Source of the DNA: a bacterium
Lineage (GTDB): Bacteria > Armatimonadota > UBA5829
Length of the DNA: 64,000 bases
Reading direction: 5' to 3'
NCBI GenBank assembly: GCA_021371935.1
Contig: JAJFVF010000003.1
Coordinates: forward strand, 1 to 64,000
Shown: piece by piece, positions 8,729 through 59,949 of the stretch
How positions within the stretch are numbered: the first letter of the stretch is position 1
How the letters are laid out: each line of letters begins with the position of its first letter
Made by a program: the position numbers and the translations under genes
Notes under the pieces: model-generated
Seen by the model: only the letters and a program-made list of their open reading frames with translations
What the model was told of the DNA's origin: nothing
The model's database searches: none

Positions 8729-8841
8729 TGCTGTTTCTCGATTCTCTAGCGTTTGTTATTGCAATCAGAAATTGCAGGAGTTATGTTTCGGTCGCGATCA
8801 GATATCGTGCCCGAACACAAACTAACTTATCTTGAGACGCC

Positions 8842-8857
8842 GGGGCAAGAATGCCCC
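8842..8857. repeat. REP-like hairpin, small type
   Basis: GGGGC and GCCCC arms around AAGAAT. It is paired with a larger hairpin 11 nt away. The same AAGAAT/AGGAAT loop recurs in hairpins around the RAYT gene at 49 kb. Confidence 0.65.
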
Positions 8858-8868
8858 TCGCAAGGTGC

Positions 8869-8892
8869 GTCCGGGGCAGGAATACCCCGGAC
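8869..8892. repeat. REP-like hairpin, large type
   Basis: Perfect 8-bp arms GTCCGGGG and CCCCGGAC around CAGGAATA, followed by GATCA. Near copies lie at 33549-33572 and 48965-48988. Confidence 0.75.
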
Positions 8893-8929
8893 GATCAAGC
8901 CCGAACATATACTCTCTGCTTTCCACTTA

Positions 8930-14148: not shown

Positions 14149-14171
14149 GCAATTTACGCTAAGTAAATTGC
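14149..14171. repeat. 23-bp dyad element, copy 1
   Basis: Perfect arms GCAATTTAC and GTAAATTGC around GCTAA. The same dyad, reverse complemented, is at 48419-48441. Here it lies between the stop of the exported protein gene and the uvrC promoter. Confidence 0.75.
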
Positions 14172-16380: not shown

Positions 16381-16416
16381 AAATGGTCTGGGACCAAGTT
16401 TGGTCCCAGACCATTT
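16381..16416 (-). terminator. Rho-independent terminator of the DUF2795 gene
   Basis: Perfect 16-bp arms (16381-16396 and 16401-16416) around a 4-nt loop. On the minus strand the stem is followed by a run of eight U residues. It lies 40 nt after the stop of the DUF2795 gene. Confidence 0.9.
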
Positions 16417-22240: not shown

Positions 22241-24181
22241 ATGGCTAATGTGCAGACTCCCAAAAAACTGGCCGATATGCTGGCTGGGATCGTTCGTCAG
22301 GACTCAAACCCAGACACGCAATACGAAGCCTACAGCCTTTTTCTGGACAGACTACTGCAATCTTCCATCGCCACGCCACATAATTGCCCGATCACAAAAC
22401 AGGTGGCTGCAGTTCTGGATCATATTGACCTCGACCAGGTCTTCACGGACTACGTGGCTGAGGGCAAAGACCCGGCTATATACTTCTTTGAAGAGTTCAC
22501 CAGAGCTTGCAACGCATTGGCTTCAAGAAAACGCGGAGTGCACTATTCCCCTCCGACAATTGTCTCATACATGGTCCGCTGTGTCGAGTCTATATTGTCC
22601 GCAAACATGGGCATATCGATGCAGGATGCGGTGGTGATCGACCCGTGCTGTGGGATGGGAACATTTCTAAAATACATCGAAGACAACTGCAAACACGGTC
22701 GACTGATCGGTATGGAACTCGATCCGACCCCAGCAAAACTGGCTTTGCACATCCTGAGAAAATCAGAGATTATCCAAGCCAACAGTCTCGATAAGACAGA
22801 CCTCGACATTGGGAATAATATGCCGGTCATAATAGGCAATCCGCCCTATTCAGGCCATTCGTCCAACGCAGGCAAAATCGAAGAACTGCTTGCCGACTAT
22901 AAAGATGGCCTTGCCGAACGCAACCCCAAATGGCTCCAGGACGATTATGTAAAGTTCATGCGAATGGCTCAGAATCATATAGATTCAGCAGACAAGGGTA
23001 TAGTCGCGTTCATCACAAACCACAGTTACCTTTTTAACCCGACATTTCGAGTGATGCGCGAAAGCCTGATGCGCTCTTTCAACCACACTTATATCCTGGA
23101 CCTCAATGGCAATGCAAAGATAAATGCAGAACGCTCAGACGAGAATGTGTTCCCTATCCAGATGGGTGTCGCAATATCGTTTATGGTAAAAAACGCGGAT
23201 TGCAACAACAAACGTTTATACTATACTCAACTGCACGGCACCCGCACGCAAAAACTCGACACTCTATCGCATATGAGCTTCACTGATACTCCGTGGAAAG
23301 ATATAACACCTATAAAGCCGTTCAACCTCTTCATTCCAGTCGATAATGACCTTCAGAAGGAGTATTACGCATACCCTTCTATCCTGGACCTGTTCAATGA
23401 AAGGAGCGTAGGGTTTGTGACCTCGCGCGATGAGTTCGCTGTCGATGAGGACAGGCAGGCTCTGCTCGAACGAATAACGGCTCTCAGAGACGACAAAATC
23501 TCACCGGATGAGATTCGCGGTCGCTATGCAGTAGGTGACCTGGATATCGAGTCTGCAAGACAAACACTTCAACTCGACCCGGACTGGGAAAGCAAAATTG
23601 TGGAGGCGACCTACAGGCCGTTCGACAGGCGCTGGGTGTATCTGTCAAAGGCCGTCATGGAGCGGCCAAGGCTGCCTTTTATGGAGAACATGCTTCATGA
23701 CAACATAGCCCTGGCCGTCGGGCGTGCAGGTCGGGTTACTGGATCGAGCGAATGGGATGTAGTTTTCTGTGCGGACTGTCCGACTGACCTGAATTTGTTC
23801 CGCCGAGGCGGAGCCATGCTGCTGCCGAAATATATTTATACTGATGGACACAGAAAATCCAATCTCAAATCGGACAATGATGGAATCTTCTTTTACATAT
23901 ATGCGGTCCTTTACAGCGTGCAGTATAGAGCGCGCTATGCCGATTTCCTCAAGTCCGACTACCCCCGCATCCCAATAGTGGATAACTCGCACATATTTGA
24001 TGAGCTTGTCGATCTGGGGAAGGAGCTTATTGCGGTCCACCTGATGCCCAACAAGGTGTTTCCGGGAGATATGTCACAGATGACGATAGGAGGCTATGGC
24101 ATTCCGCTGGGAAGCGCGGTTATCAGGACAGGTGTTATACAAAAGAAGATCGATAAGGCTCTTTGTTCGGGCGCAATCTGA
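22241..24181 (+). CDS. Type ISP-like adenine DNA methyltransferase with specificity domain
   Basis: 646 aa. After an N-terminal helical region comes RGVHYSPPTIVSYMV, typical of N6-adenine methylases, then SAM motif I DPCCGMGTFL near residue 134 and catalytic motif NPPYSG at residue 200. The C-terminal half (residues 430-640) contains YRPFDRRWVYLSKAVMERPR split by key residues YRPFD, and resembles the type ISP/Eco57I-like C-terminal target-recognition domain. No nuclease or helicase domain is fused or adjacent, unlike the roughly 1,500-residue type ISP enzymes. It may be an orphan modification enzyme or the remnant of a restriction system. Flanking genes are unrelated, which suggests transfer. 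Confidence 0.82.
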   Translation: MANVQTPKKLADMLAGIVRQDSNPDTQYEAYSLFLDRLLQSSIATPHNCPITKQVAAVLDHIDLDQVFTDYVAEGKDPAIYFFEEFTRACNALASRKRGVHYSPPTIVSYMVRCVESILSANMGISMQDAVVIDPCCGMGTFLKYIEDNCKHGRLIGMELDPTPAKLALHILRKSEIIQANSLDKTDLDIGNNMPVIIGNPPYSGHSSNAGKIEELLADYKDGLAERNPKWLQDDYVKFMRMAQNHIDSADKGIVAFITNHSYLFNPTFRVMRESLMRSFNHTYILDLNGNAKINAERSDENVFPIQMGVAISFMVKNADCNNKRLYYTQLHGTRTQKLDTLSHMSFTDTPWKDITPIKPFNLFIPVDNDLQKEYYAYPSILDLFNERSVGFVTSRDEFAVDEDRQALLERITALRDDKISPDEIRGRYAVGDLDIESARQTLQLDPDWESKIVEATYRPFDRRWVYLSKAVMERPRLPFMENMLHDNIALAVGRAGRVTGSSEWDVVFCADCPTDLNLFRRGGAMLLPKYIYTDGHRKSNLKSDNDGIFFYIYAVLYSVQYRARYADFLKSDYPRIPIVDNSHIFDELVDLGKELIAVHLMPNKVFPGDMSQMTIGGYGIPLGSAVIRTGVIQKKIDKALCSGAI

Positions 24182-24196
24182 TACGCCCGAACACCG

Positions 24197-33455: not shown

Positions 33456-33548
33456 TTTCTTCTCCTATAAGCTGAGAGCGGGGAGCCCGGAGCCGCTGCC
33501 GCTCATTTATTCTGTTGATTAAGAGATTGCTATCTAGTCTAAAAGCCC

Positions 33549-33572
33549 GTCCGGAGTAAGAATTCCCCGGAC
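33549..33572. repeat. REP-like hairpin, large type, degenerate
   Basis: GTCCGGAG and CCCCGGAC around TAAGAATT, one arm mismatched, followed by GATCA as at 8869-8892. It lies between the two GH2 genes. Confidence 0.7.
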
Positions 33573-33583
33573 GATCAGCACGC

Positions 33584-48418: not shown

Positions 48419-48441
48419 GCAATTTACTTAGCGTAAATTGC
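48419..48441. repeat. 23-bp dyad element, copy 2
   Basis: Arms GCAATTTAC and GTAAATTGC around TTAGC, the reverse complement of the element at 14149-14171. The spacer contains the TAA stop of the Mut7-C gene, and the final codons of that gene are inside the dyad. Confidence 0.8.
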
Positions 48442-48874: not shown

Positions 48875-48889
48875 ATGATTACCTATTGT

Positions 48890-49017
48890 GGGCAAGAATG
48901 CACACATAGACTGGTCGAGGGCAAGAATACTCCCGACCATCGGGGGATTACCTGATTCCAGATTGTCCGGGGGATTCTTACCCCGGACGCACGTATCCGG
49001 GCATTCCTGCCCACGAG
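48890..49017. repeat. REP-like hairpin cluster downstream of the RAYT gene
   Basis: Four hairpin-like units: GTGGGCAAGAATGCACAC (48888-48905), GTCGAGGG/CTCCCGAC around CAAGAATA (48914-48937), GTCCGGGG/CCCCGGAC around GATTCTTA (48965-48988), and GGGC/GCCC around ATTCCT (48999-49012). The last two are in the opposite orientation to the first two. They abut the RAYT gene at 49019. Confidence 0.8.
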
Positions 49018-49018
49018 T

Positions 49019-49534
49019 TTACCAATCAATGACCTCCAAAGGTTGAATAGACGCACGATCCTCATAATAGAAACCAGCACTTGAGTATTTCCAATCGCAC
49101 GGATTCGTCACAAAACCTGCTCTTACCGGATTATCATGCATGTATCTCATTTTCTGCTCGCAAAACTTGATTGAATGAATTTGCTCTGGGTGATATCCAT
49201 CTTGCCATACACCACCTGCCCGCTCAATTGCACGAACCCATGAACTGCGATCTTCCTGACGTATTTTTTCAGCAACTAAATGCGCAGTGTAACCTTTGAT
49301 ATTGCCCAATAGCTGAGGTAAATCGCCATCAGTTTGTGTGCATATCAAGTGGAAGTGATCCGGCATAATTACATATGCATGAAGAATCAAACCCCTGCAT
49401 TTGATGCAGTAACCTAGACTATCAGTCATGACTCGAAAGTAGTAGTCACGACGAAAAGCCGGTATCCAGTGAATAGTCGCACTGGTTACAAAATGAGGGT
49501 AATGGCCATCATATACTTTGAAGTGTGCCGGCAT
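49019..49534 (-). CDS. rayT: REP-associated tyrosine transposase (RAYT)
   Basis: 171 aa. It shows the Y1 transposase (IS200-like) fold: N-terminal PHFVTSATIHWIPAF, the metal-binding HUH motif in MPDHFHLI, and a C-terminal helix with YMHDNPVRAGFV and KYSSAGFYYED supplying Tyr candidates. Single-copy enzymes of this type, flanked by REP palindromes, bind and cut those palindromes. Hairpins of one family lie on both sides (48890-49017 and 49601-49649). The ATG at 49532-49534 is preferred over the TTG at 49543. It is probably the source of dispersed hairpins at 8.8, 33.5 and possibly 54.4 kb. Confidence 0.85.
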   Translation of the reverse strand: MPAHFKVYDGHYPHFVTSATIHWIPAFRRDYYFRVMTDSLGYCIKCRGLILHAYVIMPDHFHLICTQTDGDLPQLLGNIKGYTAHLVAEKIRQEDRSSWVRAIERAGGVWQDGYHPEQIHSIKFCEQKMRYMHDNPVRAGFVTNPCDWKYSSAGFYYEDRASIQPLEVIDW

Positions 49535-49600
49535 GATTATCAACCATTTAGTGAAATTCTATCAGTTGTACACTTAATCCTCCATTACAAGGCACTTTCC

Positions 49601-49649
49601 GGGCAGGAATGCCCATGAAGACTGGTCGGGGGCAAGAATACCCCCGACC
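49601..49649. repeat. REP-like hairpin pair upstream of the RAYT gene
   Basis: GGGC/GCCC around AGGAAT (49601-49614) and a perfect 9-bp stem GGTCGGGGG/CCCCCGACC around CAAGAATA (49624-49649). The same loop CAAGAATA occurs at 48922-48929. Confidence 0.85.
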
Positions 49650-49753
49650 ATCGGTCCCGCTGACTGTCGCCGTACCTACGCCGAAGGAATATCCTAAAGC
49701 CGTGTCTAACCTGTGTATGGTACATTTGTTTAACACACTGGAGGATTTCTCAA

Positions 49754-54298: not shown

Positions 54299-54395
54299 CA
54301 TGCATCTTGCAGAAAGAGCCGAAGTGAGCAAGAATTTCCAGGTAACCGGACTATATCGGTCCGATTGTAGATGAAATTTGGCCGGATATGATTAT

Positions 54396-54421
54396 GGTCG
54401 GGGGCATGGCTGTCCCCGACC
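54396..54421. repeat. GGTCGGGG hairpin
   Basis: Perfect 8-bp arms GGTCGGGG and CCCCGACC. The same arms as at 49624-49649, but the loop is different (GCATGGCTGT), and it can extend by G-T, C-G and A-T pairs. It ends 6 nt before the stop of the gene at 54427. Confidence 0.65.
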
Positions 54422-54426
54422 AGTCT

Positions 54427-55189: not shown

Positions 55190-55255
55190 GCATTATTCAC
55201 GAAGATCGTGAATAATGCTCTCGGAGCCCCGGATTATGCGGAAAACGCATAATCC
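55190..55255. repeat. 66-bp two-hairpin element, copy 2
   Basis: Hairpin GCATTATTCACGA/TCGTGAATAATGC, linker CTCTCGGAG, hairpin GGATTATGCG/CGCATAATCC. Reverse complement of the copy at 30240-30305, with stems here almost perfect. Confidence 0.88.
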
Positions 55256-55270
55256 AGGCTAATGCACAAA

Positions 55271-59864: not shown

Positions 59865-59949
59865 GTTCGGGCTGGATCGGATATCCAGCCCGAACTGATA
59901 TTTGGCACCTACAGAGTCATCTATGACAATGAACGTCCATCGCTAAAAT

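Follow-up and report, generated by a model that had tools for sequence, protein, structure and literature searches.

The window, by which we mean the entire 64,000-nucleotide stretch of DNA that was analyzed, carries a small transposase gene whose neighbors encode a Mut7-C protein and a 453-aa protein. The product of this gene matched the NCBIfam RAYT model (NF047646, REP_Tyr_transpos) at 108.3 bits, above the cut-off of 80, and the Pfam model Y1_Tnp far more weakly (26.8 bits). The Y1-type transposase recognized here in a preliminary description is thus a RAYT, with both the HUH motif (DHFH) and the tyrosine motif (YMHDNP) in place, as well as W113-Q114 and a C-terminal WKYSS. In an alignment of nine RAYTs, residues H63, H65, W113, Y134, N138, and P139 were invariant, and the HUH/Tyr region could be aligned to E. 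coli TnpAREP (4ER8), the sole solved relative that we found. The gene is single copy in its own genome (G000, a draft assembly of 3.54 Mb), where the next RAYT, on contig C19, is 42% identical.

Hairpins lie on both sides of the gene, as the preliminary description had reported, and they resolve into three units (Table 1). Along the plus strand, a class B unit in plus orientation (48890–48938) is followed by a class A unit in minus orientation (48965–49012), the gene on the minus strand, and a second class B unit in plus orientation (49601–49650). The two units that adjoin the gene are mutually inverted, each with its short hairpin facing the gene, and the extra unit outside them matches the one at 49601–49654 with 87% identity over 54 bp; all three fold about 4 SD below shuffles. 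The flanking set had been called mixed, with hairpins in opposite orientations and differing arms. Both the inversion and the two arm types are real, whereas the apparently different hairpins on each side are the two parts of one repeated unit; given the arrangement of the gene-adjoining units, the "mixed" arms are therefore the two ends of the RAYT locus.

Table 1. Positions of the RAYT gene, its bracketing hairpins, and gene-less copies in the window
Feature	Position	Strand	Remarks
RAYT / TnpAREP gene	49019..49534	-	ATG start; alternative TTG start gives 49543
Whole RAYT block (units and gene)	48884..49654		771 bp; absent from the syntenic G004 site
HP1, short hairpin of 5'-side end unit	49601..49614	+	GGGCAGGAATGCCC
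HP2, long hairpin, class B	49623..49650	+	TGGTCGGGGG CAAGAATA CCCCCGACCA, then ATC
HP1, short hairpin of 3'-side end unit	48999..49012	-	
HP2, long hairpin, class A	48965..48988	-	GTCCGGGG TAAGAATC CCCCGGAC
HP1 of third, outer class B unit	48890..48903	+	degenerate stem
HP2 of third, outer unit	48913..48938	+	class B
Gene-less class A two-hairpin unit	8820..8897	+	HP1 8841–8858, HP2 8868–8893
Degenerate lone class A HP2	33548..33573	+	loop TAAGAATT
Degenerate copy, class B arms	54395..54422	-	loop lost; 25 bits with the covariance model

Anatomy and gene-less copies of the unit

A full unit comprises two hairpins of the same orientation with the same loop—the long hairpin (HP2; 9-bp stem, 8-nt loop) and the short hairpin (HP1), separated by a linker of about 9 nt. 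HP2 occurs either alone or with HP1 placed 29–31 nt ahead. The loop reads CARGAATA, or TATTCYTG on the complementary strand, where the order is GAT foot, HP2, about 9 nt, and HP1. The two arm types of HP2, A (GTCCGGGG; CGTCCGGGG..CCCCGGACG) and B (GGTCGGGG; GGTCGGGGG..CCCCCGACC), share this loop and differ by compensating pair differences at two stem positions. ATC directly follows HP2 of both arm types in 46 of 53 copies, corresponding to the GAT foot on the complement; the canonical GT[AG]G foot (GTAG/GTGG) is absent, with 4/53 on the written strand and 0/53 on the complement. The nine-base-pair HP2 stems are held by compensatory change: 96.2% of stem cells are paired across the 53 copies, 56 cells are changed on both sides, and the covariation exceeds that of every shuffle (0/500 as high), with pairing in slid registers reaching only 38–59% as a control. 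A family tagged by CGTC, with which class A starts, was rejected as an identification; CGTC lies inside the stem here, and in the family described in PMC3733652, stems that start with A/T and have a CCA tail carry it unpaired, as a tag.

Across the 3.54 Mb, GGGCARGAATRCCC has 55 exact sites and 78 with at most one mismatch, compared with 0 and 2, respectively, for the reversed-pattern control, and the HP2 covariance model gives about 50 strong matches. The copies that had been noticed elsewhere in the window also held up: the lone hairpin at 8842–8892 belongs to a two-hairpin unit (8841–8893), that at 33549–33572 is a degenerate copy (33548–33573), and the partial one at 54396–54421 retains its arms only. 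A 20-bp direct repeat (80%) flanks the insertion at 8820–8897, a possible target duplication, and overlaps another hairpin family. As a separate observation, an ORF call of 752 aa contains a class A hairpin at C11:22783 (L213), which may be an in-frame insertion of a REP.

Four inverted A/B pairs are gene-less (C5:53484/53584, C13:19830/19873, and C13:301039/301109 in G000, and one on C16 of the congener G004), and inverted pairs joined A with B in 5/5 cases, a small number. The arms are best read as the preliminary description suggested, with one enzyme serving two REP subfamilies: they have the same loop, sit at opposite ends of the RAYT locus, and are partners in every inverted pair seen. 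They resemble in this the Y and Z REPs of E. coli.

Relatives, empty sites, and other RAYT-associated families

Exact hairpins are unevenly distributed: 55 in G000, 18 in G004 (a second species of the genus), none in G001, G002, or G003, and at most 3 elsewhere among 61 genomes. Equal abundance in RAYT-less relatives had been named beforehand as the observation that would speak against a REP/RAYT system, and the zero in G001, a congener without any RAYT, is far from equal to the count in G000. Covariance-model matches of at least 35 bits numbered about 50 in G000 and about 23 in G004, with single ones in G001, G003, and G016, and those below 35 bits in G005 and G017 may represent other hairpin families.

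At the syntenic locus, G004 keeps both neighbors without the block at 48884–49654, and G003 and G001 are also without a RAYT there; the 78-bp unit at 8820–8897 is likewise absent from the corresponding place in G004. Five copies are common to G000 and G004 (L042/L116, L057/L118, L060/L126, L067/L114, and L083/L117), and one is probably shared with G003. Since some copies are shared across species and others are absent in G004, the family predates the species, and G000 has gained copies (or G004 has lost them). G004 does have RAYTs, none nearer than 41% to that of the window, and a search for a remnant of the cognate gene returned only weak fragments, none near the window RAYT. Either the 18 exact sites of G004 have outlived their enzyme or the draft assembly lacks its gene; repeats are able to persist in a genome in which a cognate enzyme was not seen.

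Other RAYTs have hairpins of their own. Designating the CARGAATA hairpins family 1, we found that the C19 RAYT of G000 is bracketed by hairpins with the loop CTCCGA (family 2), of which GATCTCCGAATC occurs in 19 exact copies in G000 and 67 in G004. CTCCGA-type hairpins also lie 50–150 bases from the starts of seven G017 contigs (C7, C14, C31, C244, C297, C319, and C336), which suggests that the assembly is broken there by a longer element present in multiple copies. Family 3 (loop CAGAT/ATCTG, TTCGGGC arms) is represented at window positions 8755–8817, with similar hairpins at 24164–24193 and 59865–59895; G000 has more than 20 copies of it and G004 has many, and it matches the ends bracketing the G004 RAYT at C66:99064. 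No RAYT bracketed by family 3 hairpins was seen in G000. Enzyme and repeats are thus not strictly coupled today, as G004 for family 1 and G000 for family 3 illustrate.

Other RAYTs of the clade, from G000 and five further genomes, lie between inverted hairpin ends whose loops are private to each, and almost all of these ends have two hairpins. Foot, long hairpin, linker, and short hairpin were present on both sides at 10 of the 11 loci inspected, that of G022 differing, and the linker is mostly 7–14 nt, about 30 in one locus. In Acidobacteria, Elusimicrobia, and other groups, RAYT relatives likewise have conserved-loop hairpins at their flanks, some of them doubled.

Orientation, known systems, and competing explanations

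Copies on the same contig share orientation (permutation p=1e-5). To assign the leading strand in the draft assembly, we took the T-A skew at third codon positions and corrected it for the direction of genes. Its sign is largely stable along contigs, with one switch within C13, and mostly agrees with G-C skew and gene excess; raw GC skew in 20-kb stretches was dropped as a marker, being dominated by gene direction. Among lone family 1 copies in G000, the CARGAATA strand lies opposite the leading strand in 35/41 (Fisher p=1.2e-5; contig-level sign flip p=0.0098), sites that both suggested and tested the trend. Two independent looks were available: lone family 3 copies follow the same rule in 19/21 (p=0.004), and G004 agrees in direction only (14/20, p=0.17, not significant). 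Families 1 and 3 combined give 54/62 (p=0.001), and family 2 showed no significant bias (8/12). Where gene direction and replication conflict, replication predicts orientation by 7 to 2. The strand with the foot (GAT-HP2-HP1) thus tends to serve as template for lagging-strand synthesis; IS608-type transposases use this same strand (PMC6006769), and the orientation is as single-strand transposition of that type would predict. In the papers covered by a limited literature search, REPs were nowhere described as oriented by replication strand; those of E. coli have been reported over both strands without clustering (PMC12306157).

The REP/RAYT layout inferred beforehand from the hairpins stands, given the family match, the bracketing inverted hairpins, and the many gene-less copies. 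Its attribution mainly to Proteobacteria and cyanobacteria was too narrow (PMC3733652, PMC6006769). A small single-strand-DNA transposase gene, inverted two-hairpin repeats around it, and about 50 copies without a gene, mostly in one orientation relative to replication, identify a REP/RAYT system, here of an atypical, poorly described type. Canonical REPs often form inverted doublets, which hide orientation; most copies here are lone, and orientation is therefore readable. As in the REPtrons of E. coli, Stenotrophomonas, and Pseudomonas, a RAYT-family gene with HUH and Tyr motifs is surrounded by inverted palindromes with many gene-less copies, and paired subtypes form inverted dimers (Y/Z in BIMEs) with compensatory stem changes. 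Unlike in REPtrons, GAT takes the place of the GT[AG]G foot, a second short hairpin carries the same loop, and the majority of copies stand alone, with an orientation that follows the replication strand. The best fit in layout is the TIRtron/TIRYT of Di Nocera 2013, including "double palindromic TIRs" (PMC3733652): a RAYT-like gene without GTAG repeats, long TIRs, some of them double-palindromic, and moderately abundant families. In the window, too, a RAYT-like gene is flanked by TIRs that are unrelated to GTAG and form a repeat family. In the text consulted there is no mention of a shared loop, of A and B arms, of a replication bias, or of loops specific to each enzyme within one clade. By motifs and descriptions, the window RAYT also appears to resemble TnpAREP subclass 2.6 (RAYT group 5, mostly Bacteroidetes; Quentin 2018, PMC6006769), which is characterized by NH[LIV]H, WQ, YIH[QN]NP, an SS tail, a 21-aa insertion, and atypical structures. 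WQ, a YIH[QN]NP-like tyrosine motif, the C-terminal SS, and an insertion of about 20 residues before W are shared, as are "atypical secondary structures" that surround the gene and recur elsewhere, whereas the HUH motif is DHFH (NHFH or THxH in relatives) and the tyrosine motif YMHDNP.

We consider it likely that the locus is a non-GTAG REPtron/TIRtron of subclass 2.6-like type that moves single-stranded DNA. What the RAYT would recognize is the folded, single-stranded form of its own repeat, comprising the GAT foot, the 9-bp hairpin with loop TATTCYTG, the linker of about 9 nt, and the short same-loop hairpin. Because loop and foot are constant while the arms vary in a compensating fashion, specificity probably resides in loop and foot, so that one enzyme could serve both arm types; group 3 TnpAREP enzymes, in which single loop bases are decisive and GTAG changes tolerated (PMC8266576), offer a precedent for loop-led recognition. 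The HUH/Tyr site would then cleave and rejoin the strand, spreading gene-less units, which would be copied or moved at replication forks, mainly on the lagging-strand template; such insertion could account for the strand bias.

Several alternatives must be weighed against this mobile REPtron/TIRtron. That the window RAYT merely sits among hairpins moved by another enzyme, whether a different RAYT or a lost one, seems unlikely to us: persistence of the family in G004 without a cognate RAYT would fit, as would the interspecific sites, by which the family predates the present locus, but the C19 RAYT has its own loop and its own exact copies, other clade RAYTs have private loops, and three CARGAAT units hug the window RAYT alone, with no such hairpins seen in the stretch inspected at the third G000 RAYT (C7:48292). 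We give distinctly less credence to RNA elements, terminators or mRNA stabilizers under selection rather than mobile DNA. A T-run is not the rule after the hairpin, where ATC prevails; orientation tracks replication better than genes; convergent, divergent, and tandem spacers are all occupied; and G004 has a unit-sized empty site—all of which weigh against the position of 42/50 placed copies outside ORF calls and the RNA roles of REPs elsewhere (PMC3733652). The slimmest chance falls to a conventional insertion sequence of the IS200/IS605 type, accompanied by MITE-like derivatives, which would explain a Y1 transposase and a 771-bp block missing from the congener's syntenic site; yet the gene is found once rather than in multiple copies, with its next relative in the genome so divergent, the RAYT model is far stronger than Y1_Tnp, and the ends are inverted repeats, unlike those of IS200/IS605 (PMC2817692).

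To our knowledge, no RAYT has been seen moving a REP in a cell, and the spread of REPs is still deduced indirectly. For the clade as a whole, we offer as a tentative proposal, held with slightly less than even confidence, that RAYTs with two-hairpin ends recognize loop and foot and that lone repeats record one-strand insertion, making lagging-strand targeting by a domesticated transposase readable from genomes. The clade supplies natural enzyme/loop pairs for tests of recognition rules, and its orphan families suggest that repeats outlive their enzyme.

Further hairpins of the window

A further two-hairpin repeat, GCATTATTCACG-N5-CGTGAATAATGC, lies at 55190–55258 and has an invariant 12-bp stem with a variable loop, the reverse of the RAYT family. 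We counted 67 copies in its own genome, 27 in G022 (another family of the same class), 3 in G004, and 0 in six other relatives searched; one G022 copy adjoins a RAYT. A 9-bp hairpin arm, GCAATTTAC, is shared by 14149–14171 and 48419–48441, where the loops are complementary to each other, and a perfect 16-bp hairpin, AAATGGTCTGGGACCA-AGTT-TGGTCCCAGACCATTT, is located at 16381–16416.
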